Source of the DNA: Planctomycetota bacterium
GTDB lineage: Bacteria > Planctomycetota > JAMOSO01
DNA: 42,047 bases
NCBI GenBank assembly: GCA_027063065.1
Contig: JAMOSO010000035.1
Span: 1-42,047, forward strand
Reading direction: 5' to 3'
In this document: positions 3,278 to 35,808 of the stretch, one piece after another
Position numbering within the stretch: the stretch's first letter is position 1
Layout: every line of letters starts with the position of its first letter
Translations under genes and position numbers: made by a program
The notes under the pieces: model-generated
The model's database searches: none
Told to the model about the DNA's origin: nothing
The model's input: only the letters and a program-made list of their open reading frames with translations

Positions 3278-3578
3278 TTTTTTTCTCCTAAATGAGTAAT
3301 AAATAAATTTTAATCACTTATAGCAAAGCTTGTGCCTAAAACAGACTATTTAACGTAAGATGTTTCTGTATAATGGTTTAGCTCTGTTTGTTTTTTAAAA
3401 AAATAATTGTTTATAGTCATTTTGACACATAAACTATAAAATTGACCCTGACAATTTTACCTTTGTTTTAACTTTTAAGTATTTATTTGTAATAATTTGT
3501 TTTATGCTGTAAAAACCTATTTGTTATTATATATAAAAGGTTAAAATAAAATTTTAAATTAATTAATTGGATAATATT
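3278..3578. other. AT-rich divergent intergenic region between dnaK and arsC
   Basis: About 300 bases with no gene. It must hold the promoter of dnaK (-) and of the arsC-led operon (+). I see no consensus -35/-10 pair on either strand. TTGACA at 3422 and TATAAT at 3369 exist on the plus strand but are not paired at a workable distance. An 8-bp inverted repeat at 3410-3440 is the clearest structure. No heat-shock sigma32-type promoter, CIRCE element, tRNA or DnaA-box cluster is visible. Confidence 0.6.
3410..3440. repeat. Inverted repeat (operator-like) upstream of dnaK
   Basis: TTTATAGT (3410-3417) and ACTATAAA (3433-3440) are perfect 8-bp inverted arms separated by 15 bp, about 24 bp centre to centre. 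The spacer contains TTGACA. The spacing differs from CIRCE (9-N9-9). It could bind a dimeric regulator of dnaK or of the divergent operon. This is inference from symmetry alone. Confidence 0.45.
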
Positions 3579-4016
3579 ATGAAGATGCAACGCAAAAAAG
3601 AGGTGTTATTTTTATGTACTGGTAATTCTTGTCGTTCACAAATGGCAGAGGGCTTGGCTAGGCATTTGAAAAGCGATCACATTATTGCATATTCTGCCGG
3701 TATTGAAACTCATGGTTTAAACCAGTCAGCTGTTTTAGTTATGCGTGAGATAGGTATTGATATCTTATCGCAAAAAAGTCAGCATTTGGATGAATTTGCC
3801 AATCATAAGTTTGATTACGTTATTACTGTATGTGATCGTGCAGCTCAAAGTTGCCCAATATTTAATCAAAATGTGCAAGTGATAGCTCGTCCTTTTGACG
3901 ATCCACCTCTATTGGCTAAAGACGAAAAAGACCCAGAGAAGGCTTTAGATTGTTATCGTAGGGTTAGAGATGAAATTTTAGAATATATCCAAACTTTGCC
4001 AGAGTCTTTAGGATAA
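3579..4016 (+). CDS. arsC: Arsenate reductase, thioredoxin-coupled LMW-phosphatase type
   Basis: A 145-residue protein of the low-molecular-weight tyrosine phosphatase fold. The P-loop is CTGNSCRS, with Cys13 as nucleophile and Arg19. Cys85 and Cys92 complete the disulfide relay of thioredoxin-coupled arsenate reductases. The spacings Cys13-85 (72) and 85-92 (7) are the same as Cys10/82/89 of Staphylococcus pI258 ArsC, and an FDDP motif follows. It should reduce arsenate to arsenite in the cytoplasm. A protein-phosphatase role is less likely but worth noting, because a Ser/Thr kinase gene starts 9 bases downstream. The frame extends upstream to a TTG at 3567; I chose the ATG at 3579 (another ATG at 3585). 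There is no clear Shine-Dalgarno sequence. No arsenite pump or ArsR is nearby. Confidence 0.85.
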   Translation: MKMQRKKEVLFLCTGNSCRSQMAEGLARHLKSDHIIAYSAGIETHGLNQSAVLVMREIGIDILSQKSQHLDEFANHKFDYVITVCDRAAQSCPIFNQNVQVIARPFDDPPLLAKDEKDPEKALDCYRRVRDEILEYIQTLPESLG

Positions 4017-4025
4017 AAGTATTTA

Positions 4026-5297
4026 ATGCTTAAAGTTGGGGATATCATAGGCGGTTATAAAATAGAAGCCAAGCTCGGCGAAGGTGGTATGGGGGTTGTC
4101 TTTTTGGCCGAGCAAGTATCTCTTCAACGCAAGGTTGCGTTAAAATTATTGCCACCTAAATTGGCTGATGATGAAGTTTATGTACAAAAATTTCAACGAG
4201 AGGCAAAATCGGCGGCAAAAATATCGCATCAAAATATAGTACAAGTGCACGATGTTGGCTCGGATAATGGTATCCATTATTTAGCCATGGAATATGTCGA
4301 TGGTGAAAGCCTTAAAGATATGTTAGAAACTTTAGGAAAAATATCTTGGCAGGGTACAGTTGATATTTTAAAACAGAGTTTGGCAGGCATTGGTCGCGCT
4401 CATGAGGCTAATATTATACACAGAGATATAAAACCAGATAATATTATGATTACTAGTCAGGCAGAAATTAAAGTTGCCGATTTTGGTTTGGCAAGGGCGG
4501 CTACAGAAGAGTCTAGTTTAACTATGGAAGGGCTTGTGGTTGGCACTCCTTACTATATGAGCCCCGAACAAATCGAAAGCCAAATATTAACTGGGCAAAC
4601 AGATATATATAGTTTAGGTATAACGATATGGCATTGTTTGATGGGGTATCCACCTTTTAAGGGTGATACTCCTATGAAGACTGCCTTGTTGCATTTAAAT
4701 AAAGATTTGCCAAATTTGCGCAAAGAGTTGCCTGATGTGCCAGATAAGTATATTGCAATTATCGAAAAAATGTGTCAAAAAGAACCTAAACATCGTTATC
4801 ATCAAGCTAAAGATGTTTTAGGTGCTATTGCCGATTTTGAAAAAGATTTATTTGGTAACAGTATAAAAAAAACTAGCCGTAAAGCGCATCGCTCAGTTTC
4901 ACAAGAATCTGTCGCGTCAGACTTAGATGAAGATTTGTTTAAAGATTTGAATATTGGGGTAAAAAAACGACATATTGTGCTTATTTTAATAGCGGCAATA
5001 GCCAGTTTTGTATTGATTTTATGGTTTTTTGTGCCAGATCAGTCTAAAGATGATTTACAATTTAAAATAGATTTAATCTTAACAGATATTAAGCAAGAGT
5101 TTAAAAATCCCAAAATTGATGAAGTAAGTAAGGCCTTACGTAGAGGTTATATTTTGGATGCGGAGAAATCAGAGGCAGAGGGCTTTATTGATCAGGCGAT
5201 TTATTTATTACAAAAAGCTAATGCAATAGATGAAACATCTTCTGTTAAGCAAAAAATACGTCAATTGCAAAAACGTAAGCGGGTGATTAATAAATGA
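4026..5297 (+). CDS. Transmembrane Ser/Thr protein kinase (PknB/Hanks type)
   Basis: A 423-residue kinase. The kinase domain (about 11-275) shows the glycine loop GEGGMG (18-23), Lys40 in VALKLL, the catalytic loop HRDIKPDN (132-139, Asp134), DFG (152-154) and GTPYYMSPEQ as the activation/APE segment. All catalytic residues are present, so it should be active. A cytoplasmic linker runs to a single membrane helix at about 317-336. The final 85 residues, presumably periplasmic, include a helical TPR-like piece (AIYLLQKANAIDE), not PASTA repeats, so the ligand is not the usual muropeptide. The stop overlaps the next start by 4 bases (ATGA), indicating coupling. Substrates are unknown; the three coupled downstream products are the best candidates. 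Confidence 0.93.
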   Translation: MLKVGDIIGGYKIEAKLGEGGMGVVFLAEQVSLQRKVALKLLPPKLADDEVYVQKFQREAKSAAKISHQNIVQVHDVGSDNGIHYLAMEYVDGESLKDMLETLGKISWQGTVDILKQSLAGIGRAHEANIIHRDIKPDNIMITSQAEIKVADFGLARAATEESSLTMEGLVVGTPYYMSPEQIESQILTGQTDIYSLGITIWHCLMGYPPFKGDTPMKTALLHLNKDLPNLRKELPDVPDKYIAIIEKMCQKEPKHRYHQAKDVLGAIADFEKDLFGNSIKKTSRKAHRSVSQESVASDLDEDLFKDLNIGVKKRHIVLILIAAIASFVLILWFFVPDQSKDDLQFKIDLILTDIKQEFKNPKIDEVSKALRRGYILDAEKSEAEGFIDQAIYLLQKANAIDETSSVKQKIRQLQKRKRVINK

Positions 5298-6517
5298 AAC
5301 AGTGGTTTAAATTAACAATTGCTATTATTAGTATTATAAATATAGCAGTTATGCTTTTTTTATGTATTTATAATTACGATTCTAATAATAAATATAACGA
5401 GCGTATAATTGATAATCAGTTAGATGTTTTATTAGAACTTGCTAAGACAAATTATAATAACAATAATCAAATTGTGGATTACCAAAATAGTGTAGCTTTA
5501 AAAACCATGGCTATATTGGCGCGGGCATCAACAGTTAGTTTATTAAATAGGGTTGATTATATTAAAAAAGATATTTTTGCATCGATAGCAAAACTTAAAT
5601 CAGCAAGTATTTCAGAGCCTGGCCCAGACGGAATTGCTGAAAAAAAAATATGTACACAGCCTGATACGGGTGCGTTTGCTCAACAGGTTAGAGGTAAAAT
5701 TTTGCAACAATTTAATCAAATCGCCATTGCCTCGTTTAGTGCGTTAAATGATGAAAACATAGAGGTGCAAATATATGATGGCTCTAAAATAATTTACCAA
5801 AGTAAATATAGGTTATTAAATGATGTAACGGCATTAAAGTATAGCCATGAGATATTACTTCCCGTTGGTGGTTCTACTGTGGCACTTGAGCTAAAAATGA
5901 GTACACCTAAAAAAACTGTGGAGTTTTTAAAATCAAGCGATTCTTATTTCAGTTCTTGGTTACATGATGGTGGTGTAGTTTATGGCGTTTATTGGATTGG
6001 TTTTGATAGAGGCTTAAAGTCGTTATGGTATAATCAACCAGCTGATGAGCTTTTGGAGCAGATTCAAATGTATCTTGTGCCGTGGCCAGACGAATATCAA
6101 AGTAGAAAAATAAAATTAAAAGATAAAACCATATTAACTTGGATTAAACCTATAAAATATAAAGGTAAAAAGGCAGTGGCAGTGGCTTTATATGCTAATC
6201 CAGCTAGTAAATCAGTTTATTTTATTGGTATTTTATTAATAAATATCGCAGTTTTGATAGGGTTAGCGGTTTTGTCTCCACCTAAACCATTAATAATTAA
6301 TGGTGAATTGCGTAAACGCAGAAGCCAAAATCATAATACTAATTTATCAACACTACGTAGTGATCCTCCTCCGCCAAATCCAATGTTAGTGTCAAAAAAG
6401 CGTAGTCGCAATACGGAAATAGTTCGCAACGAACTTGATTCTATAGGTGTTCCAGATATTATGCATGGAGCTAAAAGTGAAGTTTTAAAGTCTCTTTTAA
6501 AAAAGATGCGTGAATAA
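5294..6517 (+). CDS. Two-TM membrane protein of unknown function, kinase-linked
   Basis: I do not recognise the family. The 407 residues contain an N-terminal membrane helix (about 5-27), a large domain of about 280 residues that is probably periplasmic, a second helix at about 307-328 and a basic cytoplasmic tail of about 80 residues. This layout (TM, extracellular domain, TM, short tail) is that of a sensor input half without an output domain. The soluble region has Trp/Tyr-rich stretches (SWLHDGG, VYGVYWIGF, LVPWPDEYQ) that could form a Cache-like or ligand-binding fold, but I cannot confirm that. It overlaps the kinase gene by 4 bases and the ATPase gene by 1 base, so the three are made together. 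The tail (RKRRSQ..., KKRSRN) could be a kinase substrate. Confidence 0.75.
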   Translation: MKQWFKLTIAIISIINIAVMLFLCIYNYDSNNKYNERIIDNQLDVLLELAKTNYNNNNQIVDYQNSVALKTMAILARASTVSLLNRVDYIKKDIFASIAKLKSASISEPGPDGIAEKKICTQPDTGAFAQQVRGKILQQFNQIAIASFSALNDENIEVQIYDGSKIIYQSKYRLLNDVTALKYSHEILLPVGGSTVALELKMSTPKKTVEFLKSSDSYFSSWLHDGGVVYGVYWIGFDRGLKSLWYNQPADELLEQIQMYLVPWPDEYQSRKIKLKDKTILTWIKPIKYKGKKAVAVALYANPASKSVYFIGILLINIAVLIGLAVLSPPKPLIINGELRKRRSQNHNTNLSTLRSDPPPPNPMLVSKKRSRNTEIVRNELDSIGVPDIMHGAKSEVLKSLLKKMRE

Positions 6518-7392
6518 TGTATAAAAAACATTGGAATTTAAAATATAAACCTTTTATTAATACTCCAGATCCTCGCTATTTGTATTTTAGTTCTAATCAT
6601 GAAGAAGCATTAATACGTTTGTTTTATGTGGCTAATGAGCAAAATGGGGCTTTATTGTTAACAGGTGGAGTGGGGTGTGGTAAAACATTAATTAGTAGGG
6701 TTTTTATTAATGAACTTAACCCTAAACGTTTTGATGTGGCATTAATTACGCATCCAAATTTATCTGCTGCAGAATTTATTAAAGAAATTTTATATCAATT
6801 AGGTATAGAAACAGACCTAACAGCTAAGGTTGATTTAATACACTTATTAAATGAAAAAATATTTGAGGCTTCTAGGCAGGGACGCCATACAATAATTATT
6901 ATAGATGAAGCACAATTGATTTGTGATCCATTAACAATGGAGGAAATACGTTTATTGTTAAATTTTCAGCAAAATGATTGTTTTTATATAACTTTAATTT
7001 TAATGGGGCAACCAGAGTTGGCAAAACATGTAGCTCAAATACCTCAATTGGTGCAACGTTTAGGGATTAAGTTTCATATTGGTCCGTTAGATGAAGGTGC
7101 TACAAAAGAATATATTGAACATCGAATGGCATTGGCAGGTAATAAAGAAGCTGTGTTTTCTGTCGATGCTTGTAAATTGATTTATCAAGCTAGTGCTGGT
7201 ATTCCACGTCAGATTAATACTATATGTGATATGGCATTATTAGTTGGTTTTGGGCAAAAGTTTTTATCTATTTCTGCCGATATTATTCAACAGGTGATTC
7301 ATGATGTGAATCAATACAACAATATGACAACTTCTGAGAATAAAACTGATGATAAATTTTCGCAATATAAAAATAGAAGAGGAACATCCTGA
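6517..7392 (+). CDS. ExeA/GspA-like AAA ATPase
   Basis: A 291-residue P-loop ATPase. It opens with the ExeA-type N-terminus (WNLKYKPF, then TPDPRYLYFS) and carries Walker A GGVGCGKT (50-57), Walker B IIIIDEAQ (Asp130-Glu131) and a C-terminal winged-helix-like lid with GIPRQINTICD. Aeromonas ExeA, of which this is the AAA half, works with ExeB to fit the type II secretin through peptidoglycan. ExeA itself continues into a membrane helix and a peptidoglycan-binding domain; both are absent here, so this is a soluble, ATPase-only version. No secretin or gsp genes are near. It overlaps the upstream membrane-protein gene by 1 base and the downstream acidic-protein gene by 44 bases, suggesting that its membrane partner is encoded by a neighbour. 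Confidence 0.88.
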   Translation: MYKKHWNLKYKPFINTPDPRYLYFSSNHEEALIRLFYVANEQNGALLLTGGVGCGKTLISRVFINELNPKRFDVALITHPNLSAAEFIKEILYQLGIETDLTAKVDLIHLLNEKIFEASRQGRHTIIIIDEAQLICDPLTMEEIRLLLNFQQNDCFYITLILMGQPELAKHVAQIPQLVQRLGIKFHIGPLDEGATKEYIEHRMALAGNKEAVFSVDACKLIYQASAGIPRQINTICDMALLVGFGQKFLSISADIIQQVIHDVNQYNNMTTSENKTDDKFSQYKNRRGTS

Positions 7393-9193
7393 AAATTATC
7401 CAGAAGATATTTTGGACGAAATAGCAGATGAGTCCAAAATCAGCGATGCTGATTTGGATTTATTATTAGAAGTTACTGAATCCGATGATGTTCAAGCGGA
7501 TGTGAGTGATAATACTATTGATAATTTTGTTATATCTGCAGAATCCAAACCTGATTTGAGCAATCGCATAGAATTGTATCGCGATTTAGAAAGTAAGTTA
7601 ATTGCTAGATTTAGCAAAGGTCAAGATGTGGTGTTAAAAAAACCAGATCACATTAATTTAAATGAATTGCCTTTTAAAGATGCTAAAACTAAATCTAAAG
7701 CTAAATTAGTTAGCTCTAAAATATCACAGGCAAAAAAGAAAAATCCACTAGAAGCATTTATTAATGATCATAGCTCTGTAACTAAAGCGCATAAAATCAA
7801 ACATAAGTCTGTTAGCGGATTGAATTTAAGTTCTATTTTTGACCATGATGATACAAAAAGTATTGATAAACCATCACAGCTTACACCTATAGATAAAGAC
7901 ATTTTTAATGACTCTCTTGAATCGATGGCAAAACAATCTCAAAAGATGTTGGCAGGTACACGGGCAACAGATTTATTTCCTACTGAAGTTCTTAATGCTG
8001 ATAACGTTAATAAATCAACATCTAGTGATTCTACTATCTTTATGGATTTAGATGATAGTTTGGCGGAGGCACAGTCTGGAAAGGGTTTATTGGTAAATAA
8101 AGGTCAGGATGATGAGCTTGTTGATGTAGATTTAGATTCATTATTTTCAGGAACAGTTGTTGAAGATGCTGTAGATTTAGATACGCAACACCAACAAATA
8201 TTTGACGAAATTGCTGATTTTGAAGCGAAAGATATGGCTAAGCATCATAAAGAGGATGATCAACCTGATAAAACTAAAAATACAACTAAAGAAGTTATTC
8301 CAGTAGTAGATACGGTTGATATTGATAAAAATAAGCAAAATATGTGGCCGGATGTTAAAAGGCACACCAAATCTAAACTTGGCAAGCCGTTAGGTATTAA
8401 GTCTAAAAAATCTGCAAATGTATCAGCTGAATCCAATAATCAGGTTATTGATGAGCATATACAGGTAGACGATACTTCTTGGTATGATAAAACTCAATTG
8501 CACGAATGTAGTAAGACTCAGGATTTGGAAGAGGATTATTTGCAGGATATATTTGCACCAGAAAATGAGTTTGACAAAATCTTGTGCGAAGAAACTCCTG
8601 TCGTAGCTAATAATCAATCAAAAGAAATTCAATCAGAAAAGATTCAATCAAAAGAGTCAAAATCTGAAATGGCAGTTGATCCAGTCTTAAACTGTGCAGT
8701 AGATGAAAGCAGTTCTGTCGATACAGCAGAGTTATTGTCGCTAGATGATGAATTTGGTGATCATATCTTTGATGAGTTAGAGGATGTATCTAGCTTGATA
8801 AATGAAACAAAAGCACCAGATAATATAGGTAATATAAAACCAAAAATTCAAAAATCTTCAGCCTTAGCTGCATTAAATGATATGATGAGTGATTTAGATG
8901 AGCCTAAAGAGACTGCAAATGCAAAATTAAATACGCCTTCTAAATCTACATCAAATATTAAAGATATATTTACTAAATTTATGGTTATTTTACAAAAAAT
9001 GCTTAAACTACCAATGGTTCGGTTGAAAATTTTTTACGATAGAATTGCTAATATTTTTCAACCTATTGGGGATTGGATTAGGTCTATTCCTGGGCTTGAG
9101 AATCTTAGTTTTTCCATGCGAGATTGGGCGGGATATCTGGGTTCGGTTGTTTTATTTATATTGGTCATGGACAATATTTTACGGCGTTGGTAA
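7349..9193 (+). CDS. Large acidic, mostly disordered tail-anchored protein, unknown function
   Basis: No family recognised. The 614 residues are dominated by Asp, Glu, Lys and Ser with short Asp/Leu patches (VDVDLDSLF, DAVDLD) and a small repeat around EIQSEKIQSKE, so most of it is probably disordered. The last 90 residues differ: an amphipathic, basic/aromatic stretch (about 530-590) and a single C-terminal membrane helix (GSVVLFILVMDNIL) ending in RRW. That predicts a tail-anchored protein with a long cytoplasmic arm, or the reverse. The ATG at 7349 lies 44 bases inside the ATPase gene. No better in-frame start with a ribosome-binding site is seen downstream, although an AGAGGAAC at about 7378 is suggestive. 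Its Ser/Thr content and coupling to a kinase and AAA ATPase suggest a phosphorylated scaffold (inference). Confidence 0.72.
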   Translation: MINFRNIKIEEEHPENYPEDILDEIADESKISDADLDLLLEVTESDDVQADVSDNTIDNFVISAESKPDLSNRIELYRDLESKLIARFSKGQDVVLKKPDHINLNELPFKDAKTKSKAKLVSSKISQAKKKNPLEAFINDHSSVTKAHKIKHKSVSGLNLSSIFDHDDTKSIDKPSQLTPIDKDIFNDSLESMAKQSQKMLAGTRATDLFPTEVLNADNVNKSTSSDSTIFMDLDDSLAEAQSGKGLLVNKGQDDELVDVDLDSLFSGTVVEDAVDLDTQHQQIFDEIADFEAKDMAKHHKEDDQPDKTKNTTKEVIPVVDTVDIDKNKQNMWPDVKRHTKSKLGKPLGIKSKKSANVSAESNNQVIDEHIQVDDTSWYDKTQLHECSKTQDLEEDYLQDIFAPENEFDKILCEETPVVANNQSKEIQSEKIQSKESKSEMAVDPVLNCAVDESSSVDTAELLSLDDEFGDHIFDELEDVSSLINETKAPDNIGNIKPKIQKSSALAALNDMMSDLDEPKETANAKLNTPSKSTSNIKDIFTKFMVILQKMLKLPMVRLKIFYDRIANIFQPIGDWIRSIPGLENLSFSMRDWAGYLGSVVLFILVMDNILRRW

Positions 9194-22461: not shown

Positions 22462-23064
22462 ATGACAGAAAATCTCCAAGAGTTAACCGCTACGTTAATG
22501 CGTGACGGTGTAGAAAAGGGAGAGGCAGAAGCAGCTTCAATTATTGAAAAAGCTAATGCCCAAGCAGCCGAAATTTTATCAGCTGCTCAAAAAGAAGCCG
22601 ATGCTATTAAAGAGCAGGCTACAAAAGAGGCTCAGCAAACTACTGCGGCCACCAAAGCTGACTTGCAATTGCGTGCGCAACAGATGTTAGCTCAACTAAA
22701 ACAAGATATCACTAATTTGGTGCAGACTAAAATATTGGATGGGGCTTTAGCTAGTCCTTTGTCCGATGCTGGTGTAATTGCAGATTTACTTAAAGCAATT
22801 ACTAGCAATAAAGATTCTGTCTCATCTAAATTAGAAGCTATTTTGCCAGAATCATCCAAAGCTACTTTAGAATCTGCATTGCAAAGTTCTTTGCAAACAG
22901 AGCTAAGTGCTGGACTAACTTTAAGCTTTTCTGCTGATATTGAATCGGGCTTTCATATTCAACCGGCAGAAGGTGGTTATCGCATAAGCTTTACAGAGGC
23001 TGATTTGGATGCATATTTCAAAAATCAGTTACGTCCTAAGGTTCGGGAACTTTTGTTTAACTAG
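22462..23064 (+). CDS. atpE: V-type ATPase subunit E (peripheral stalk)
   Basis: A 200-residue V/A-ATPase E subunit. The N-terminal 90 residues are a long Ala/Glu/Gln-rich helix (IIEKANAQAAEILSAAQKEA) that forms the peripheral-stalk coiled coil. The C-terminal 100 residues are the globular head (a PAEGGYRISFTEADL patch) that grips the A/B ring. The stalk normally pairs E with subunit G/H; no such gene is visible in this operon. AGGGG lies 7 bases before the ATG. It is the first gene of the cluster, as in Chlamydia. Confidence 0.9.
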   Translation: MTENLQELTATLMRDGVEKGEAEAASIIEKANAQAAEILSAAQKEADAIKEQATKEAQQTTAATKADLQLRAQQMLAQLKQDITNLVQTKILDGALASPLSDAGVIADLLKAITSNKDSVSSKLEAILPESSKATLESALQSSLQTELSAGLTLSFSADIESGFHIQPAEGGYRISFTEADLDAYFKNQLRPKVRELLFN

Positions 23065-23070
23065 GTTATT

Positions 23071-23697
23071 GTGGCAAGTTATTATTATCTATTAACTGGT
23101 TTGCCAAATCTGGGCGCAGAAACTTTAGAGTTTTCTGTAGATGAACTTGCTTCATATCTCAGTGAAGAGCTTACCGAAAGCGATAATCAATTATTACAAT
23201 TAATCACTACTGATATCAAACAAAGAGATGCTGATTTTTATGCTCGATGTCAAAGTCAAAAACAAGGCTTTATTAAAGATTGGTTTGAATTTCAGCAACA
23301 GTTTAGAAATACCTTAGCAACTTTATCTAAACGTATTTTGCAAGACGCCGGTATAAAAATTGATGATGTTTTGATTGGTGATAATGAATTTTCTCAAGCA
23401 CTTAATAGCTCATCAGCCCGTGAGTTTGGTTTGGGTGGTATTTATCCTTGGGTTGAAGATGTTGTAGAGGCTTCTTCTTTAGAGGGTATTGAGCGTGAAA
23501 AACGCCTTGATGAAATTCAATTAGAAGTACTCGATGAGCTTACTCCCCATGGCACTTTTGCTATTGAAGAGGTGTTAGCTTATTTTGAAGCGTATAAATT
23601 AAATGCCCGTTGGCACTCCTGTACCCGAGAAATTGGTAGTGCTGCTCTTGTTCAACGGGTCAACGAAATTGAAGCAGCCATGGATTTAACATTCTAG
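23071..23697 (+). CDS. DUF2764 protein of the V-ATPase operon (possible subunit C equivalent)
   Basis: A 208-residue protein starting with GTG at 23071 (AGG 6 bases upstream), 6 bases after atpE. The opening ASYYYLLTGLPNL is the DUF2764 signature. The rest is helical, with an FEAYKLNARWHSC segment near the end. DUF2764 genes occur between atpE and atpA in V-ATPase operons of chlamydiae and Bacteroidetes. Because these operons lack a recognisable subunit C (the central collar linking rotor to membrane ring), and this gene takes that position, a C-like role is a reasonable inference, though sequence alone does not prove it. Confidence 0.85.
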   Translation: MASYYYLLTGLPNLGAETLEFSVDELASYLSEELTESDNQLLQLITTDIKQRDADFYARCQSQKQGFIKDWFEFQQQFRNTLATLSKRILQDAGIKIDDVLIGDNEFSQALNSSSAREFGLGGIYPWVEDVVEASSLEGIEREKRLDEIQLEVLDELTPHGTFAIEEVLAYFEAYKLNARWHSCTREIGSAALVQRVNEIEAAMDLTF

Positions 23698-23700
23698 GGG
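23696..23700 (+). promoter_or_regulatory. Ribosome-binding site deciding the atpA start
   Basis: AGGGG directly abuts the ATG at 23701 with no spacer, which initiation does not normally tolerate. It is 6 bases before the in-frame GTG at 23707, an ideal distance. Confidence 0.6.
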
Positions 23701-23706
23701 ATGAGC

Positions 23707-25491
23707 GTGAATACAGAATTAAAAAAAACTACTGGCAAGGTTGTCGGTATTGTTTCAAATCTGGTCTCCGTTGAGGTTGACGGGCCAGTAGGTCAAAATG
23801 AAATAGCTTATATTAATCTCGATGGAACAAAATTAATGGCTGAGGTCATTAAAATTACTGGCGATATCGCTTCTGTACAGGTTTTTGAAAGTACACGAGG
23901 CCTACGCACAGGTTGTTTGGTTGAGTTTGAAGGACACATGTTAGAGGTGGAACTTGGCCCAGGTATGCTAAGTCGTAACTATGATGGACTACAAAATAAT
24001 TTAGATGCTATGGAAGGCACGTTTTTAAAACGTGGCGATTACACTGAGCGTGTTGATAAGTCGGTTAAATGGGATTTTACTCCAATAGCTAAAGTTGGTG
24101 ATAGCGTTTCATCTGCTTCTTGGCTTGGCGAGGTAAAAGAGGGCTGGATACCACATAAAATTATGGTTCCTTTTAAGCTTAAAGGTGAATATAAAATCAC
24201 CTCCATTGCCGATGCAGGTTCATACACTGTTGATGAAGTAATAGCTACTTTAGAATCATCAAACGGTGAAAAAGTTGATGTTAGCATGATGATGCGTTGG
24301 CCAGTTAAAGTTGGTGTAACTGAATTTAAACATAAACCTAGACCTTTCCGTCAAATGGAAACAGGCGTGCGTGCTATCGATACTTTAAATCCAATTATGG
24401 AAGGCGGTACAGGTTTTATTCCAGGGCCTTTTGGTGCTGGTAAAACGGTATTGCAACATGCTATCTCTAAAAATGCGGATGCGGATTTGATTATTATTGT
24501 GGCTTGTGGCGAGCGTGCCAACGAAGTTGTAGAAATTTTCACAGACTTTCCAGAGTTAATCGACCCACGTACAGGACGTTCGTTAATGGAGCGTACAATT
24601 ATTATTTGTAATACATCAAATATGCCAGTGGCGGCTCGTGAGGCATCTGTTTACACTGGTATGAGTGTGGCAGAATATTATCGCACAATGGGTCTTAAGG
24701 TGTTATTGCTTGCCGATTCAACATCTCGTTGGGCTCAGGCTTTACGCGAAATGTCAAACCGTATGGAAGAATTGCCAGGTCCTGACGCTTTCCCTATGGA
24801 TTTAAGTGCGATTGTTGCTAATTTTTACTCTCGTGCAGGTTATGTTGAATTAAATAACGGCAAATCAGGTTCGATTACTTTCTTGGGTACAGTAAGTCCT
24901 GCTGGAGGAAATTTAAAAGAGCCAGTAACGGAGTCTACCAAAAAAGCGGCTAGATGTTTTTATGCATTACAGCAAGAGCGTGCCGATGCTAAGCGTTACC
25001 CATCTATTAATCCTATTGATAGTTATTCTAAATATTTGGAATATGATGAAGTTATCGAAAATTTAGACAAGACTGTAGAGCCAGGTTGGGTTAAAAAAGT
25101 TGATAGACTGCGTAATTATTTATTGCGTGGTCAAGAGGTTATGGATCAAATAAATATTTTAGGTGATGATGGTGTGCCTTTGGAATATCATATTCGTTTT
25201 AATAAATCTGAAGTTATCGATTTTATAGTCTTACAGCAAGATGCTTTTGATAAAATCGATGCATCGTGTCCTATGAATCGTCAACAATATATTGTTAATC
25301 AAGTGATGCATATCTGTGAATCTGATTTTGCATTTGATAAATACGAAGAAGTTGGCCCATATTTCAAAAAGATTATTAATCTTATGCGTCAAATGAATTA
25401 CCAAGAATTTCAAAATGATAAATACAAAGAGTTAGAAAAAGAACTCAATGAATTTGTGGCGACTAGAACAGTTGCACAGGAGGCTGTATGA
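23707..25491 (+). CDS. atpA: V-type ATPase catalytic subunit A
   Basis: A subunit of about 594 residues, catalytic part of the A3B3 ring. It shows the N-terminal beta-barrel (GKVVGIVSNLVSVEV), the A-specific insertion region after LEVELGPGMLSRNYDGL, the P-loop GPFGAGKT, the catalytic-Glu segment ACGERANEV, and DSTSRWAQALREMSNRMEELPG. It hydrolyses or makes ATP, coupled to ion flow through I/K. ATG 23701 is in frame two codons earlier, but the AGGGG site points to GTG 23707. It starts 9 bases after the DUF2764 gene and overlaps atpB by 4 bases (ATGA). Confidence 0.96.
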   Translation: MNTELKKTTGKVVGIVSNLVSVEVDGPVGQNEIAYINLDGTKLMAEVIKITGDIASVQVFESTRGLRTGCLVEFEGHMLEVELGPGMLSRNYDGLQNNLDAMEGTFLKRGDYTERVDKSVKWDFTPIAKVGDSVSSASWLGEVKEGWIPHKIMVPFKLKGEYKITSIADAGSYTVDEVIATLESSNGEKVDVSMMMRWPVKVGVTEFKHKPRPFRQMETGVRAIDTLNPIMEGGTGFIPGPFGAGKTVLQHAISKNADADLIIIVACGERANEVVEIFTDFPELIDPRTGRSLMERTIIICNTSNMPVAAREASVYTGMSVAEYYRTMGLKVLLLADSTSRWAQALREMSNRMEELPGPDAFPMDLSAIVANFYSRAGYVELNNGKSGSITFLGTVSPAGGNLKEPVTESTKKAARCFYALQQERADAKRYPSINPIDSYSKYLEYDEVIENLDKTVEPGWVKKVDRLRNYLLRGQEVMDQINILGDDGVPLEYHIRFNKSEVIDFIVLQQDAFDKIDASCPMNRQQYIVNQVMHICESDFAFDKYEEVGPYFKKIINLMRQMNYQEFQNDKYKELEKELNEFVATRTVAQEAV

Positions 25492-26807
25492 CTCAGGCGT
25501 TTCAAAAAATTTACACCAAACTAGAGAACATCACCAAGGCTACTTGTACCATTAAGGCTGAAGGTGTTGCCAATGAAGAGATGGCATTAGTAGATGGCCG
25601 TCCTGCTCAGGTTGTAAAAATTAATCGTGATATGGTTACGTTGCAAATTTTTCCTGGTACACAGGGTATCGCAACTAACTCTGAAGTTGTCTTCACTGGT
25701 AAGCCACCGTCAATTAAAGTTGGCGATGAATTGCGAGGACGCTTTTTTGATTCTTACGGTAAGCCAATTGATGGTGGTGCAGAAGTTGATGGCGAAGAAG
25801 TGCCAATTGGTGGTCCTTCTGTTAATCCTGTAAGACGTAAACAGCCTTCTGAATTAATTGCCACTGGTATTGCCGGTATTGACTTAAACAATACTTTGGT
25901 GACAGGTCAAAAAATACCTTTCTTTGCCGATCCTGACCAACCATATAATGCGGTAATGGCTGATGTAGCTTTGCGTGCCGATGCCGATATTATCATTTTA
26001 GGTGGAATGGGTATGAGTAATGATGATTACTTATATTTTAAATCGGTATTTGAAAACGCAGGTGCTTTAGATCGTATTATTTGTTATATGAATACAACAG
26101 ATAATCCTCCCGTAGAACGTTTGCTAGTACCAGATAGTTGTTTGACAGCAGCCGAGTATTTTGCTGAAAAGAGAAATATGAAGGTTTTGGTATTATTGAC
26201 AGATATGACATTATATGCCGATGCTTTGTCTATTGTATCTAATCGTATGGATCAAATTCCATCTAAAGATTCAATGCCAGGTTCATTATATTCTGAGTTA
26301 GCTAAGCTTTATGAAAAAGCTGTACAGTTGCCAGATGGTGGTTCTATTACTTTGGTAGCGGTAACTACTTTAAATGGTGGTGATATTACACATGCTATTC
26401 CAGATAATACTGGTTATATTACTGAAGGACAGTTGTTCTTACGCCGTGATACGGAAATCGGCAAGATTATTGTAGATCCTTTCCGTTCATTATCTCGTTT
26501 AAAACAGTTGGTTATTGGCGAGGTAACCCGTGAAGACCATCCACAGGTAATGAATGCTTGTGTTCGTTTATATGCGGATGCTGCCAATGCCAAAACTAAA
26601 TTGGATAATGGTTTTGATTTATCTGATTATGACGAGCGTTGTTTAAAATATGCTAGAGGCTATTCTGAAAAATTACTTGCCATTGATGTGAATGTCGAAA
26701 TCGACAAAATGTTAGACACTGGTTGGGAGCTTTTTGCCGAACACTTTACAGTGGAAGAAGTTGGTATTAAGCACGAATTAGTTGATAAATATTGGAAGAA
26801 AGCCTAA
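25488..26807 (+). CDS. atpB: V-type ATPase regulatory subunit B
   Basis: A 439-residue non-catalytic partner of AtpA in the A3B3 head. It has the V-type B pattern (ELRGRFFDSYGKPIDGG, TGIAGIDLNNTLVTGQKIP, DMTLYADALSIVSNRMDQIPS) but lacks a Walker A lysine motif, as expected for B. The arginine-finger region follows MPGSLYSELAKLYEKA. AGGAGG lies 4-5 bases before the ATG, which overlaps the atpA stop, so A and B are coupled at 1:1. It is slightly short of archaeal B subunits (about 460), as in the chlamydial type. Confidence 0.96.
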   Translation: MTQAFQKIYTKLENITKATCTIKAEGVANEEMALVDGRPAQVVKINRDMVTLQIFPGTQGIATNSEVVFTGKPPSIKVGDELRGRFFDSYGKPIDGGAEVDGEEVPIGGPSVNPVRRKQPSELIATGIAGIDLNNTLVTGQKIPFFADPDQPYNAVMADVALRADADIIILGGMGMSNDDYLYFKSVFENAGALDRIICYMNTTDNPPVERLLVPDSCLTAAEYFAEKRNMKVLVLLTDMTLYADALSIVSNRMDQIPSKDSMPGSLYSELAKLYEKAVQLPDGGSITLVAVTTLNGGDITHAIPDNTGYITEGQLFLRRDTEIGKIIVDPFRSLSRLKQLVIGEVTREDHPQVMNACVRLYADAANAKTKLDNGFDLSDYDERCLKYARGYSEKLLAIDVNVEIDKMLDTGWELFAEHFTVEEVGIKHELVDKYWKKA

Positions 26808-26809
26808 TA

Positions 26810-27415
26810 ATGGCAATTAAATTTCAGTTCAATAAAACTTCTATGCAACAACTTTCTAAGGATTTAAAAATCCGTGAGAAAGCTTTGCCAACCTTGCAAG
26901 CCAAGGAGGCGGCTTTGCGTTTAGAAGTCAAAAAGGCCCGTGCTACAATGCAGGGGTTTGAGCAGGAGCTGGAAACGTATAAATTACAAGCTGAAACTTT
27001 TATAACTTTATGGGGAGAATTTCCAGAAGGGTTAATTAAAGTCAGTGATATAAAACTTAATTGGCGAAAACTTGCTGGCGTGCATATACCACGCTTGGAT
27101 GCTTTGAGCTTTGAATTAGGTGATATTTATTTGCATGCTGCACCTGCTTGGTTAGGTCAAGGTGTAGTTGTGATGCAGAAGCAACTTGAGATATCTACCA
27201 AAATCAAAATAGCGCAAGAAGCATTAGAGCGTTTAGAGTATGCCCGCAAGAAAACAACCCAAAAAGTTAATTTGTACGATAAGGTTCAAATTCCAGAATA
27301 CAAAGAGATTTTATTAAAAATTAAGCGTTATATGGAAGATGAAGAAAATCTAGCAAAATCATCACAGAAAATTCTGAAACAGCGTTTAGCTGCTATTGAG
27401 GAGGAGGCCGCATGA
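26810..27415 (+). CDS. atpD: V-type ATPase subunit D (central rotor shaft)
   Basis: A 201-residue protein. It is almost entirely two long antiparallel helices (residues 5-65 and 130-195) that form the rotating shaft inside the A3B3 ring. The N-terminal FQFNKTSMQQLSKDLKIREK and the C-terminal KVNLYDKVQIPEYKEILLKIKRYMEDEE are D-subunit blocks. The frame opens at a TTG (26792), inside atpB, but ATG 26810, 2 bases after the atpB stop, matches the family start. It overlaps atpI by 4 bases. Subunit F, which normally caps D, is not encoded in the cluster. Confidence 0.94.
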   Translation: MAIKFQFNKTSMQQLSKDLKIREKALPTLQAKEAALRLEVKKARATMQGFEQELETYKLQAETFITLWGEFPEGLIKVSDIKLNWRKLAGVHIPRLDALSFELGDIYLHAAPAWLGQGVVVMQKQLEISTKIKIAQEALERLEYARKKTTQKVNLYDKVQIPEYKEILLKIKRYMEDEENLAKSSQKILKQRLAAIEEEAA

Positions 27416-29268
27416 TTATTCCAGTAAAAAAGATTGACATTCTTTTACATGAATCAAATCGTGATGTTTTTCTTGATGGTTTGCAAGAAGTTGGTGTAGT
27501 TGATATTAATATTGCTACATTGGATGTAACCGAAGAGTTAAAAGACTCTTTGGATGAACTTGCTCAAGTAGAAGATATCATCAAAAAATTAAAGCCAGTT
27601 GAAAATGCTCAGCCATTATCTTCGGCTTCTGAGGTTGTGGTTAAAGCAGTTGCCATTGAGGCAGAGCTGGAAACTATTGCGGAAGATGAAGAAAAAACCA
27701 AGCAATTAATTAGTCAGTTGCAACCATGGGGTAATTTTGATCCAAAAATTATACAGTCTCTTGCGCAAGCAGGTTATCCATGTAGATTTTGGTCAATCAA
27801 TGCAAAGAATTACGTGCCTAGTTCGGGTGTATTTCAAATAGCATCTTCTGGATCAAGTTTATTGTTGTTTTCAGTCGGTAAAGATAGTATTGCTGAAAAT
27901 GCAGATGAATTGCATTTGGAATTACACTCTATTGATGAATTGCAATCTAAATTGCAAAATTTAAATTTGCGAAAAACAACTTTAGAAAATGATTATGCAT
28001 CATTGGGTGCAAATTTGGATGCGTTATGTAACTTGCGTGATGAAATGCAAAAGAAATTGGATTTGGGTAAGGCTAAATTGATAGCACAAAAACCAATAGC
28101 AGGCTCTTTACTGCATTATGCAGGTTGGATTCCAGAATCCAAACAAGAGGCAGTGCAAAAGTATTTAGATAAAGCCAAGGCTGTATATTTTTTCTCAGAG
28201 CCAAAAGAGGAAGAATCCGTGCCAGTAGCTTTAAAAAATGGAGCATTTGCTAAGCTTTTTGAACCAGTTACAAAAATATTTGCTTTACCTGATTATGCGG
28301 AAATTGACCCAACACCGTTTTTTGCTCCATTTTTTGCATTTTTCTTTGGAATGTGCTTAGGTGATACAGGCTACGGGGCTTTATTGGTTATTATTGGTGT
28401 TGTGGCATTGATGAAGGTTTCGCAAGAAAATCGCGGTATACCACTTTTGATAACAGTATTGGGCACGTCTACATTTGTAGCGGGTATATTTTTAAATACT
28501 TTTTTTGGTATGGCAATTTTTACATTTCCAGGCGTAAAAGATGCTATTTTTGATACTGCAAGCCCAATTGCATTTTTGGCTACCGTGAGTGAAAACGGCC
28601 AAACATCATTTCCGGCTATGCCTTTTGCAATGTATTTAGGTGTCATACAGGTTATTTTAGGTATTTTACTGAAATCATTTATTAAATTTCGTAATAATGG
28701 ATTGGCTTATGCTTTACAACCAATAGCAAGTGCAATTATTATAGTTGGCGTAGCTTTGGTTATGATAAAAATCAATTTTATCAGTCTAGGTGAATTTAGC
28801 ATTGGCGGTTTACATATAGGCGCTACTTTAGCTGCGTTACCTGCGGTGGTTGGTAATGGTATTACATTGGCTGGAGTTTTATTATTGCTATTTGTAAATA
28901 GTCCAGAAAAACCAATTTATATGCGACCTTTACTAGGTTTGTGGGAGATATATACTTTTTCCACGGGATTAATGGGTGATATATTATCTTATTTGCGTTT
29001 GTTTGCCTTGGGTTTAGCGGGCGGACTTTTAGGTAATGCTTTTAATGGTATAGCATTAATGTTTATTACTAATGCCGATGGTACGACAAATTGGTCAACG
29101 CCGATGGTATTGGTTGCGGCATTAGTATTTATCATAGGGCATGGAATTAACTTTTGTTTGTCGGGGCTAGGTGCGTTTGTGCATCCTTTGCGTTTGACTT
29201 TTGTAGAATTTTATAAAAATTTAGAATTTAAGGGCGGGGCAAGAGCGTTCTCCCCATTTAAAAAATAA
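27412..29268 (+). CDS. atpI: V-type ATPase subunit I (membrane stator, a-subunit)
   Basis: A 618-residue membrane subunit. The N-terminal 280 residues are cytoplasmic and coiled-coil, binding the peripheral stalk. The C-terminal half has 7-8 membrane helices. It shows the conserved DPTPFFAPFFAFFFGMCLGDTGYGA entry helix (given here in pieces: DPTPFFAPFF, then GMCLGDTGYG), the DILSYLRLFALGLAGG helix with the essential Arg that faces the K-ring carboxylates, and GHGINFCLSGLGAFVHPLRL. It provides the two ion half-channels. GAGGAGG lies just before the ATG, which overlaps atpD. The final PFKK is typical. Confidence 0.95.
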   Translation: MIIPVKKIDILLHESNRDVFLDGLQEVGVVDINIATLDVTEELKDSLDELAQVEDIIKKLKPVENAQPLSSASEVVVKAVAIEAELETIAEDEEKTKQLISQLQPWGNFDPKIIQSLAQAGYPCRFWSINAKNYVPSSGVFQIASSGSSLLLFSVGKDSIAENADELHLELHSIDELQSKLQNLNLRKTTLENDYASLGANLDALCNLRDEMQKKLDLGKAKLIAQKPIAGSLLHYAGWIPESKQEAVQKYLDKAKAVYFFSEPKEEESVPVALKNGAFAKLFEPVTKIFALPDYAEIDPTPFFAPFFAFFFGMCLGDTGYGALLVIIGVVALMKVSQENRGIPLLITVLGTSTFVAGIFLNTFFGMAIFTFPGVKDAIFDTASPIAFLATVSENGQTSFPAMPFAMYLGVIQVILGILLKSFIKFRNNGLAYALQPIASAIIIVGVALVMIKINFISLGEFSIGGLHIGATLAALPAVVGNGITLAGVLLLLFVNSPEKPIYMRPLLGLWEIYTFSTGLMGDILSYLRLFALGLAGGLLGNAFNGIALMFITNADGTTNWSTPMVLVAALVFIIGHGINFCLSGLGAFVHPLRLTFVEFYKNLEFKGGARAFSPFKK

Positions 29269-29286
29269 TTAAAAAGGAGCTTAACA

Positions 29287-29754
29287 ATGGAAACAACAGG
29301 ACAGATTTTAGCAATGATTGGCTTAGGTCTAATGATTGGTCTATCAGGGGCTGGTTCAGCTATCGGTACAGCTATTGGTGGTAGTGCGGTGGTTGGTATG
29401 CTTAAAAAGAAACCAGACGGTTTTGGTAATGGTATGGTATTAGCCGCTTTGCCAGCTACACAGGGACTATACGGCTTTGTTGGTTTTATCATGTATAATG
29501 GTGCTTTGGCAAGCATCGGTGAAAAAATGACAACTTTACAAGGTTCAGTTGTTTTAGGTGCTGGTTTGGCCTTAGGTTTAGCTGCTTTAGTATCGGCTAT
29601 TCAGCAAGGTAAAGTATGTGCTAATGGTATTTCTGCTATTGGTAGCGGTCATAATGTATTTGGTAACACAATGATTTTGGCGGCCTTCCCAGAATTTTAT
29701 GCTATTTTGGCATTGGTTGCAGCTATTTTAATGCAAAGTTTATTAGGTGCATAA
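29287..29754 (+). CDS. atpK: V-type ATPase subunit K (ion-binding ring, double hairpin, Na+-type)
   Basis: A 155-residue proteolipid with four membrane helices, i.e. two fused hairpins. Only the second hairpin has the ion carboxylate, Glu136 in AAFPEFYAIL; the first has Gln59 in ALPATQGLYGF. Leu55, Thr58, Gln59, Gln107 (IQQGKV) and Glu136 correspond one for one to the Na+ ligands Leu61, Thr64, Gln65, Gln110 and Glu139 of Enterococcus hirae NtpK. This predicts a Na+-translocating ring with one ion site per subunit. AAAAAGGAG lies before the ATG, 18 bases after atpI. A terminator follows at 29781. Confidence 0.95.
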   Translation: METTGQILAMIGLGLMIGLSGAGSAIGTAIGGSAVVGMLKKKPDGFGNGMVLAALPATQGLYGFVGFIMYNGALASIGEKMTTLQGSVVLGAGLALGLAALVSAIQQGKVCANGISAIGSGHNVFGNTMILAAFPEFYAILALVAAILMQSLLGA

Positions 29755-31210: not shown

Positions 31211-32575
31211 ATGTCAGATATAAAACTGAAGAAAGGCTATGACATCAAGCTAGAAGGCGAGGCTCCAAGTGAGTTTATTAGCTGTGATGCGCCGAAGAAA
31301 TTCGCCATCAAACCTACGGATTTTCCAGGTTTGAAACCGAAACTCCTTGTCGCCGTTGGTGATGAGGTGTTGATCGGCTCCCCTCTGTTTCATGAAAAAG
31401 GCAACGAAGATTTACTTTTTACCTCCCCTGTGGCGGGTAAAGTGATTGCCGTGAACCGTGGTGCTCGTCGTAAGATTTTGAGCATTGTGGTCGAAGACAA
31501 CGGCAGTGGGGAACGACACGAACTAAAGAGTCTGCAAAAAGATGTAGATGCTATGGGTTCTAAGGAAGTATTAGCAGCTATTATGGAAAGTGGTCTCTTG
31601 CCTATGATTAAGCGTCGACCTTTTGCCAGGATTGCTAATCCTGATAAATTGCCACGCGATATTTTTATTACTGCGCTTAATACAGCACCTCTTGCACCTA
31701 AAACGTCATTGTTGGCAAACAATAATGAAGAGGCTATGATTGCGGGTATTAATGCTTTGGCAAAATTGACGCAGGGCAGAGTACATATCACATTTGCAAA
31801 AGCGGATGCAGGTATGGGCGAAGTAATTAAAGACGCCAATTGTTTAGTGCATACGGTTAGTGGCGTGCATCCTGCGGGTAATGTCGGTGTGCATATTCAT
31901 CATATTGCTCCAATAAAAGATCGCAATGATGTTGTGTGGACATTAGATTTGCAGGCTTTGATTTTTATCGGTCGTTTATTTCAAACGGGTAAATTAGATT
32001 TAAGCACTATTGTGGCAGTAGCTGGTTCAGCGGCCATTAAACGCGGTTATGTTAAAACTACTGTTGGCGCTTCAATTGATGCTATTGTTGGCACTAAGTA
32101 TGATGAAACTGTGCGTATTATTTCTGGTGATGTTTTAACAGGCACTCAAGAAAGTATGGACGGTTTTGTTGGTATTACAGATAATTTGGTAACTATTATC
32201 CCAGAAGCCGTTGAACCAAATTTTTTTATGACTAAAGGTTGGGCTAGCCCAGGTTTTGGTGCAGAAAGCTTTTGGCGTATTTTTGCTGGTAAATTTTTAA
32301 AACCATCAAAAGGATATGTAAAAGATACTCGCTTAGGCGGTGGAGCACGTAATTTTGTTGCGACAGGCGTATATGATCAAGTATTGCCTATGGATTTATA
32401 TCCAGCATTTTTAACTAAATCCATTATATATCGCGATATTGAAGAAATGGAAGGCTTAGGCATTTATGAAGTTGCCGAAGAAGATTTTGCTTTATGCGAA
32501 TATATCTGCCCTTCTAAAGTTGAATTTCAAACCATCCTACGCGATGGTCTTACCTATGTTGAGACAGAGGGTTAA
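31211..32575 (+). CDS. nqrA: Na+-NQR subunit A
   Basis: A 454-residue peripheral subunit of the Na+-translocating NADH:quinone oxidoreductase, close to the Vibrio length (446). It begins IKLKKGYDIKLEGEA like other NqrA (IKKGLDLPI...), then KPTDFPGLKPKLLVAVGDEV, and later GVHPAGNVGVHIHHI, PSKGYVKDTR and a C-terminal LCEYICPSKVEFQ. NqrA takes part in quinone binding. The ATG fits the family start exactly, yet no Shine-Dalgarno sequence precedes it and the promoter is only 9 bases upstream. The first 350 bases are near 48% G+C by count, against about 37% from 31620 on, an abrupt internal shift. Confidence 0.95.
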   Translation: MSDIKLKKGYDIKLEGEAPSEFISCDAPKKFAIKPTDFPGLKPKLLVAVGDEVLIGSPLFHEKGNEDLLFTSPVAGKVIAVNRGARRKILSIVVEDNGSGERHELKSLQKDVDAMGSKEVLAAIMESGLLPMIKRRPFARIANPDKLPRDIFITALNTAPLAPKTSLLANNNEEAMIAGINALAKLTQGRVHITFAKADAGMGEVIKDANCLVHTVSGVHPAGNVGVHIHHIAPIKDRNDVVWTLDLQALIFIGRLFQTGKLDLSTIVAVAGSAAIKRGYVKTTVGASIDAIVGTKYDETVRIISGDVLTGTQESMDGFVGITDNLVTIIPEAVEPNFFMTKGWASPGFGAESFWRIFAGKFLKPSKGYVKDTRLGGGARNFVATGVYDQVLPMDLYPAFLTKSIIYRDIEEMEGLGIYEVAEEDFALCEYICPSKVEFQTILRDGLTYVETEG

Positions 32576-32578
32576 CCA

Positions 32579-33781
32579 GTGAAATTTTTAGCAAATATAT
32601 TTGACTCTCAGCGTAAGCACTTTGAAAAAGGTGGCAAGCTGGAGGTTTTTTATCCTCTTTTTGAGGCCAAAGAAACCTTTTTATTTACAACACCGCACAG
32701 AACCCATGGGGGAGCGCATATTCGTGATGCCGTAGATTCTAAAAGATTTATGTCCACAGTAATTGTAGCTCTTTTACCATGTTTGATTTTTGGAATTTAC
32801 AACATTGGTTATCAGTATTATGCCGCACAGGGCTTACAAGCCGATGTAATGAATTATTTTTGTATCGGTATGTGGAAGGCTTTGCCTATTATATTGGTAT
32901 CTTATGCCGTTGGTGGCACTTGGGAGTTACTCTTTGCCTTAATTCGTAAGCACGAGATTAACGAAGGTTTTTTAGTAACAGGCTTATTGTTGCCATTAAT
33001 TGTTCCGCCTAATATTCCTCTTTGGCAGTTGGCCTTAGCGGTTAGTTTTGGTGTGGTAATTGGTAAAGAGGTTTTTGGCGGTACTGGAATGAATATTTTT
33101 AATCCAGCTTTAACTGCTCGTGCCTTTTTGTTTTTTGCTTTTGCATCAGATATTTCTGGGTCTGCGCCTTGGACTTTCTTGGGCGGTGATTTAGTTATGA
33201 GTGCTAAGCAGGCAGTAGCAGGTTGGTCTGGAGCTACTCCATTGGCCATTGCTTCTGAAGCTATTAAAGGCAGTTCTGTTGAAAGTTTAATGGCATTTGC
33301 ACCTGGTGATTATTCGTTAACTAATATGTTTATTGGTTTGATTCCAGGTTCAATAGGTGAAACCTCTACACTGGCTTGTTTAGTTGGTGCATTGATATTA
33401 ATTGCTACAGGTATTGCTTCGGCTCGTATTATTATCTCTATCTTTTTAGGTGGGGCAGTTATGGGATTAATTTTTAATTCTGTTGCTGATGGTAGTTCTA
33501 ATGCAATGTTGGCTATGCCATTTTATTATCATTATGTAATGGGTGGTTTTGCTTTTGGTGCCGTATTTATGGCTACAGATCCTGTTTCGGCTGCTAATAC
33601 AAATTTGGGAAAAATCATTTATGGTTTTTTTATAGGTTTTATTGCCGTTTTAATTCGCGTTGTCAATCCTGCCTATCCAGAAGGTATGATGTTGGCAATT
33701 CTCTTTATGAACATGTCTGCGCCGCTGATTGACCATTATGTCGTTCAAGCCCATATAAAAAAGAGGTTAAGTCGTGGTTGA
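32579..33781 (+). CDS. nqrB: Na+-NQR subunit B (covalent FMN, Na+ channel)
   Basis: A 400-residue membrane subunit starting with GTG, 3 bases after nqrA. About ten membrane helices. The flavin attachment site is Thr220 in GWSGATPLA, where FMN is bound through phosphate by ApbE. Other NqrB blocks are GGTGMNIFNPALTARAFLFFA, split here as GGTGMNIFNP and ALTARAFLFF, and MATDPVSAANTNLGK. NqrB carries the Na+ translocation path and riboflavin site. The cytoplasmic N-terminus (KHFEKGGKLEVFYPLFEA) is typical. It overlaps nqrC by 8 bases. Confidence 0.96.
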   Translation: MKFLANIFDSQRKHFEKGGKLEVFYPLFEAKETFLFTTPHRTHGGAHIRDAVDSKRFMSTVIVALLPCLIFGIYNIGYQYYAAQGLQADVMNYFCIGMWKALPIILVSYAVGGTWELLFALIRKHEINEGFLVTGLLLPLIVPPNIPLWQLALAVSFGVVIGKEVFGGTGMNIFNPALTARAFLFFAFASDISGSAPWTFLGGDLVMSAKQAVAGWSGATPLAIASEAIKGSSVESLMAFAPGDYSLTNMFIGLIPGSIGETSTLACLVGALILIATGIASARIIISIFLGGAVMGLIFNSVADGSSNAMLAMPFYYHYVMGGFAFGAVFMATDPVSAANTNLGKIIYGFFIGFIAVLIRVVNPAYPEGMMLAILFMNMSAPLIDHYVVQAHIKKRLSRG

Positions 33782-34559
33782 TACAAGCAAAAATGGATAT
33801 ACGGTTGTTTTCTTGGCAATTACAACCATTGTTGCCGCATTGGTTTTATCGATTGCCTCAGAGCAGTTAAAGGTAAAGCAGGCTGTTAATAAAAAGTTTG
33901 ATCAAAAGAAAATCGTGATGAAAGCCATGGGCTTTAAAATAGATGATGGTGCAAAACCAGCGGATATTGATGCGATATATAAAAAATCAGTCGAGCGTAT
34001 TTTTGTTACACCAATGGGTAAAATTGTCAGCGTAAAAGATGCCGATAAATACAACTTTGAAAAAACTTTAAAGCCAGTGGGGTTGCATAAAGCTCCTGTT
34101 GATATGGCAAATTTAAGTGATGCGGCTAAATCTGTGCCTATGCCAGTATTTATTCGCAAGGATGAAAAAGGCCTACCTTTAAACTATACTTTTCCTGTTA
34201 CAGGCAAAGGATTGTGGTCAACTTTGTATGGTTATATTTCTTTAAATGCTAAGGATTTAAACACTATTGAAGGTGCTATTTTTTATGACACTGGAGAAAC
34301 TCCAGGTTTGGGCAAAGAAATAGAAGCAGATTGGTTTTGTAAAAATTTTGTAGGCAAAAAAATTCTAAATGCAGAAGGTAAATTTGTGTCTGTTAGTGTT
34401 AACAAAGGCGTTGTAAATCCCTCAGATAAAATGTTTGAGCATAAGGTTGATGGCGTCAGTGGCGCAACATTAACTTGTAACGGTGTAACAGATTTATTAA
34501 ATAAAGATTTTCACCTATATGAAGCCTACCTCAATTCTTTACGTGGAGGTAAAAAATAA
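33774..34559 (+). CDS. nqrC: Na+-NQR subunit C (covalent FMN)
   Basis: A 261-residue subunit: GTG start, one N-terminal membrane helix (about 8-27), then a periplasmic FMN-binding domain. The flavinylation motif is DGVSGATLT with acceptor Thr232. GLWSTLYGYISL and ETPGLGKEI are conserved NqrC/RnfG blocks. It passes electrons between the membrane Fe centre and NqrB. GAGG lies 8 bases before the start, which overlaps nqrB. The stop overlaps nqrD by one base (TAATG). Confidence 0.96.
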   Translation: MVDTSKNGYTVVFLAITTIVAALVLSIASEQLKVKQAVNKKFDQKKIVMKAMGFKIDDGAKPADIDAIYKKSVERIFVTPMGKIVSVKDADKYNFEKTLKPVGLHKAPVDMANLSDAAKSVPMPVFIRKDEKGLPLNYTFPVTGKGLWSTLYGYISLNAKDLNTIEGAIFYDTGETPGLGKEIEADWFCKNFVGKKILNAEGKFVSVSVNKGVVNPSDKMFEHKVDGVSGATLTCNGVTDLLNKDFHLYEAYLNSLRGGKK

Positions 34560-35802: not shown

Positions 35803-35808
35803 GGAGTA

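Follow-up and report, generated by a model that had tools for sequence, protein, structure and literature searches.

A putative three-gene envelope module with a stand-alone AAA+ ATPase in Planctomycetota, and the kinase gene beside it

Two of the described systems close to the locus considered here involve an AAA ATPase. The first is ExeA/ExeB (GspA/GspB), a pair of type II secretion assembly factors composed of an AAA ATPase and an inner-membrane protein, in which the ATPase domain of ExeA is needed for ExeB complex formation and secretin multimerisation (PMC4098917). The second is the XrtA/PEP-CTERM ATPase (TIGR03015), which is a stand-alone AAA ATPase. A relative of the latter is encoded in the window, i.e. 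the whole 42,047-nucleotide stretch of DNA that was analysed, which stems from a Planctomycetota genome (G000) of 2.13 Mb and 90% completeness.

The locus and its ATPase

The + strand of the window carries four ORFs at 4026–9193 that successively overlap by 4, 1 and 44 bases, just as the first-pass annotation had described. Together with their neighbours they are arranged as follows:

3567–4016: ArsC-like gene, ending 9 bases before the kinase gene
4026..5297, + strand: ORF1, Ser/Thr kinase, 423 aa (PF00069, E 1e-55)
5294..6517, + strand: ORF2, two-span membrane protein, 407 aa (topology by hydropathy)
6464..6514, + strand: ORF2 C-terminal peptide, residues 391–407, HGAKSEVLKSLLKKMRE, proposed ATPase-docking helix (from comparison with relatives)
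6517..7392, + strand: ORF3, stand-alone AAA+ ATPase related to TIGR03015, 291 aa (AAA_22)
7349..9193, + strand: ORF4, acidic protein with C-terminal membrane anchor, 614 aa (pI 4.66, single TM span)
From 9208: NhaA gene, starting 14 bases after ORF4

The four genes had been proposed to be made as one unit; the transcription unit is probably longer than that. Since the flanking genes lie only 9 and 14 bases away and terminator-like sites are not in excess in the region, transcription may extend to the ArsC-like gene, which would probably be the first of the unit, and to the NhaA gene. The 44-base overlap rests on a predicted start, as position 7349 is the mechanical first ATG of ORF4, and it falls within extra residues at the C-terminus of ORF3, which the relatives of this protein lack. 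The ArsC-like protein has the fold of low-molecular-weight phosphatases (TIGR02691, 131.6 bits, cut-off 174.3) and bears a CX5R loop as well as a pair of cysteines (VCDRAAQSC) of the sort characteristic of thioredoxin-linked arsenate reductases. Further downstream, a V-type ATPase-like operon (22462–29754) and a Na+-translocating NADH:quinone reductase-like operon (31211–37053) were read from the sequence, and their presence with NhaA in one window suggests sodium-based energetics.

ORF3 contains an AAA_22 domain (E 1.5e-18) with intact Walker A (GGVGCGKT, residues 50–57) and Walker B (IIIIDEAQ) motifs and aligns over its whole length with TIGR03015 at 220.3 bits (cut-off 324.5). Its relatives share 40–52% identity and end at about residue 265–270, and it is the one ATPase of its type found in the window genome. 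The first-pass annotation took ORF3 for an ExeA that had lost its membrane and peptidoglycan-binding parts. A search of the 291 residues gave no peptidoglycan-binding Pfam domain, and the trimmed-ExeA reading was rejected in favour of membership in the stand-alone TIGR03015 group. A TniB/transposition reading was likewise discarded (TniB 29 bits vs TIGR03015 220 bits), and no solved structure was found for ORF3 by sequence.

Gene order and the acidic protein

The order of a two-TM protein, the ATPase and an acidic tail-anchored protein recurs at L055 (G017), L073 (G004, with a less acidic third protein), L032 (G125) and L075 (G309), as well as at L072 (G340), where the acidic gene is cut by the contig end. 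At L055, the ORF2-like gene and the ATPase gene have a single base in common, just like ORF2 and ORF3, and a 4 kb contig (L056, G028) carries the ATPase with the acidic tail-anchored protein. Even the nearest relatives of the window genome among the genomes drawn share only its phylum. Nearly all named relatives are metagenome assemblies, with the classes of G004 and G017 represented by two genomes and one genome, respectively. In GC-rich relatives, ORF calling produced antisense artefacts, so that L036, L041 and similar loci were counted neither way.

ORF4 itself has a pI of 4.66, consists to 19% of D+E, is mostly of low complexity and bears a single C-terminal TM span from residue 593 (about 9125–9181); the first-pass annotation had described it as mostly disordered with a membrane anchor. 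No family was assigned in Pfam or NCBIfam. Counterparts directly follow the ATPase at L032, L055, L056 and L075/L155; they have composition and topology in common with ORF4, and their sequences cannot be aligned. The loci examined contain 385 ORFs of 250 aa or more. Only six of these combine an acidic composition with one TM span at the C-terminus, and five of the six come immediately after the ATPase (Fisher p = 4.4e-6); the G004 protein at L073, tail-anchored in appearance with only 14% D+E, was left out of this count. A repeated acidic motif of the D-L-D-x-L-F type was considered as a docking signal in ORF4 and dropped, as it exceeds shuffled sequences in the window and G004 proteins and not clearly in the others. 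Other Planctomycetota of families f27 and f54 (L052, L053, L058, L059 and L062) have another kind of acidic protein behind the ATPase, with no TM span and a conserved ending K-[RKH]-[YH]-[KR]-W-[VID]; it forms a second, separate recurring pair with the ATPase. Upstream of the ATPase, L062 carries a gene of the acetyl-CoA hydrolase/transferase family and L053 a similar one.

The set is not always complete. In the class of G125, three loci (L037, L038 and L042) retain the ORF2-like protein, but its gene is set apart from that of the ATPase, and a search of these loci gave no acidic protein; L037 and L038, which keep the first two members alone, were counted against the module. In members of this class, a small ORF of about 165–220 aa directly precedes the ATPase (L037, in the gap at about 3789–4295; L042, in the gap at 2100–2612; L049). 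Its N-terminus is signal-like, and its last residues are much alike from locus to locus (WSSDPxxxxxELIxYG). Nevertheless, because Planctomycetota that are only distantly related also have the three genes side by side, ORF2–ORF3–ORF4 look like a real envelope machine: judged from sequence, they apparently constitute a genuine three-gene module, not previously described, with an ATPase of known type. The first-pass annotation knew of no described system with its proposed composition, and searches of open-licence papers did not turn up a described set like ORF2–4 either. Conservation of the neighbours, by which it proposed to judge its reading, divides the locus: ORF2, ORF3 and ORF4 are contiguous in distant lineages, whereas among the loci read the kinase joins them in the window genome alone.

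The ORF2 tail and its counterparts in Omnitrophota

By hydropathy, the TM spans of ORF2 start near residues 7 and 310, with an extracytoplasmic part of about 280 residues between them and a cytoplasmic tail behind. The protein has no match in Pfam, NCBIfam, PHROG or PADLOC, and a single-sequence search of 58 relatives returned the self-match alone. Positional and architectural counterparts exist at L073, L055, L075, L072 and L032, although the hydropathy rule calls one TM span each in the proteins of L075, L032 and L072. Full-length homologs show 12–18% identity and are poorly alignable apart from a stretch of ~20 residues at the very end (AKSEVLKSLLKKMRE in ORF2). BLASTP against the G004 protein recovers the last 20 residues (13/20 identical, E 9e-5) without any other noteworthy match. 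A profile of Omnitrophota two-TM proteins encoded upstream of the ATPase aligns with ORF2 at HGAKSEVLKSLLKKMRE alone, a weak statistic by itself. The first-pass annotation had ascribed to ORF2 a large periplasmic domain without output, but the protein seemingly has an output in the form of the conserved C-terminal peptide.

This motif was first spotted by eye. To reduce circularity, a matrix built from six Omnitrophota tails was scored on the C-termini of 1061 Planctomycetota ORFs. Membrane proteins encoded just upstream of the ATPase, which account for 21 of these ORFs, took five of the top 12 places (p = 1.3e-6), and the top 12 include L042, a locus missed by eye. In the reverse test on other phyla, five of the top 12 were flagged (p = 1e-4), in addition to L111, which falls under the length limit. 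When every upstream membrane protein was included, rank tests were weak (p = 0.02 and 0.62), since the ATPase has other partners at many loci. The tail peptide of ORF2 thus probably docks the ATPase.

In Omnitrophota, Cache-sensor membrane proteins upstream of the same ATPase family end in the same C-terminal helix. A model of one of them (L096, mean pLDDT 69.8) predicts a TM span, a folded domain, a second TM span, a disordered linker of about 80 residues and a C-terminal helix (303–316); among PDB structures, the folded domain was matched to Cache chemosensory domains. As to a Cache fold in the extracytoplasmic part of ORF2, the profile alignment was weak (24%). Omnitrophota loci of this type (L094 and L090) resemble polysaccharide loci, in which a WecA-type glycosyltransferase comes first and an HD-domain protein and a Wza-type exporter follow. 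At L078, L080 and similar loci, a Wzc-like protein (Wzz, GNVR, ParA/AAA_31) without the C-terminal motif occupies the ORF2 slot before the ATPase, which therefore seems to swap its membrane partners.

Proposed function, alternatives and known systems

A plausible function for ORF2–ORF3–ORF4, to which we assign a probability of roughly 0.5, is that of a planctomycetal envelope module in which the tail of ORF2 holds the ATPase at the membrane and the ATPase acts on ORF4. ORF2 would sense or contact something periplasmic, while its C-terminal helix would tether the soluble AAA+ protein ORF3 at the inner membrane. ORF3, probably ring-shaped, may then remodel or assemble the membrane-anchored ORF4 or a complex scaffolded by it. 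This logic would be akin to that of ExeA/ExeB, in which the AAA ATPase works with its partner in the membrane to build an envelope structure. In a wider version, which we hold with somewhat less than even confidence, receptors with interchangeable periplasmic domains would recruit one type of AAA+ ATPase via the conserved C-terminal peptide, the output being an acidic membrane-anchored protein in Planctomycetota and polysaccharide export in Omnitrophota. If true, a receptor-to-AAA+ coupling principle that pairs a fast-evolving sensor domain with a fixed docking tail of ~20 residues would be common to two phyla, and ExeA-like stand-alone ATPases would gain a first testable role outside polysaccharide loci. 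The module would also bear on the planctomycetal envelope, which is a poorly understood structure.

Alternatively, the ATPase might resemble its TIGR03015 relatives in serving a surface-polysaccharide or exosortase pathway whose genes lie elsewhere, with ORF2 and ORF4 as accessories. TIGR03015 is the family closest to ORF3, the Omnitrophota ATPase occurs with the same type of partner among the WecA-type, HD-domain and Wza-type genes, and G000 possesses two Poly_export genes, both on contigs other than that of ORF3. Yet no exosortase was found in this 90% complete genome (no PF09721 match), and the Planctomycetota module loci that were read have no adjoining polysaccharide genes. Moreover, the module-bearing genomes G125, G309 and G340 carry additional ATPase paralogs on Poly_export contigs, which argues for the module ATPase being a separate branch. 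In the ATPase tree, the window sequence groups with L075, L032, L072 and kin (support 99/83), and L033 and L055 fall in the unresolved backbone. Overall, a role in such a pathway appears doubtful.

Even less probable is a single kinase-controlled complex of all four genes, as envisaged by the first-pass annotation, in which a periplasmic signal would control phosphorylation of ORF4, with the ATPase then acting on it. The kinase domain of ORF1 appears intact, and the 4-base overlap makes co-translation with ORF2 probable here. However, the kinase is not the fixed module member that had been assumed: a kinase-domain scan of 119 related loci placed none beside the other module loci, its matches at L051 and L064 belonging to non-module loci. 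Its C-terminal 138 residues have no convincing relative in 391 other genomes of the phylum, one of which matched marginally (E 0.002 over 56 residues). The window genome encodes eight kinases, ORF1 among them, and membrane-spanning kinases are the rule in the phylum, with TM spans in 70–80% of Planctomycetota Ser/Thr kinases (PMC11032199). Judging by these comparisons, ORF1 is probably a local, lineage-specific addition; its overlap with ORF2 likely reflects co-expression in the window genome and nothing beyond, although the kinase may regulate the module there. Two other kinases of G000 (contigs C3 and C53; L168 and L171) appear, as read from the sequence, to have an FHA-like domain N-terminal to the kinase domain. 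A defence-system reading was also rejected, as PADLOC matches the kinase generically and ORF3 marginally.

That the genes are chance neighbours in a long operon of unrelated functions, as the unrelated-looking genes closely flanking both sides and the very fast divergence of ORF2 and ORF4 might suggest, is likely for the kinase but highly improbable and disfavoured for ORF2–4, given that distant lineages repeat the three-gene order, that the C-terminal peptide is shared across phyla and that the acidic proteins are statistically concentrated behind the ATPase.

Compared with known systems, the proteins of the locus display partial likenesses. ORF1 resembles PASTA kinases (PknB/Stk1) in its catalytic domain (NF033483, 336 bits) and in having one hydrophobic membrane-spanning segment, but it stays below the cut-off of 450, has a short extracytoplasmic part and, as annotated earlier, lacks PASTA repeats in a Pfam profile search. 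With Cache-domain receptors such as chemoreceptors, the Omnitrophota counterpart of ORF2 has in common a Cache-like domain between two TM spans, for which ORF2 itself gives the weak alignment only; unlike these receptors, the counterpart lacks a methyl-accepting, kinase or cyclase output and ends instead in the disordered linker and the C-terminal helix. The XrtA/PEP-CTERM ATPase is likewise a stand-alone AAA ATPase with which ORF3 aligns over the full model length, yet ORF3 scores below the family cut-off, no exosortase was found alongside it in the genome, and it lies outside a polysaccharide locus, among ArsC-like, kinase and NhaA genes. ExeA in turn shares with ORF3 an AAA ATPase domain with conserved GGVGCGKT and DEAQ motifs, but ORF3 has neither the TM span nor the peptidoglycan-binding domain that define ExeA structurally, ORF2 differs from ExeB by its two TM spans and its cytoplasmic tail, and no secretin gene adjoins the locus, the secretins of the genome being encoded on other contigs. 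Nevertheless, ExeA/ExeB likewise combine an AAA ATPase with an inner-membrane protein in the assembly of an envelope structure and, by analogy, are the nearest experimental counterpart of the module.
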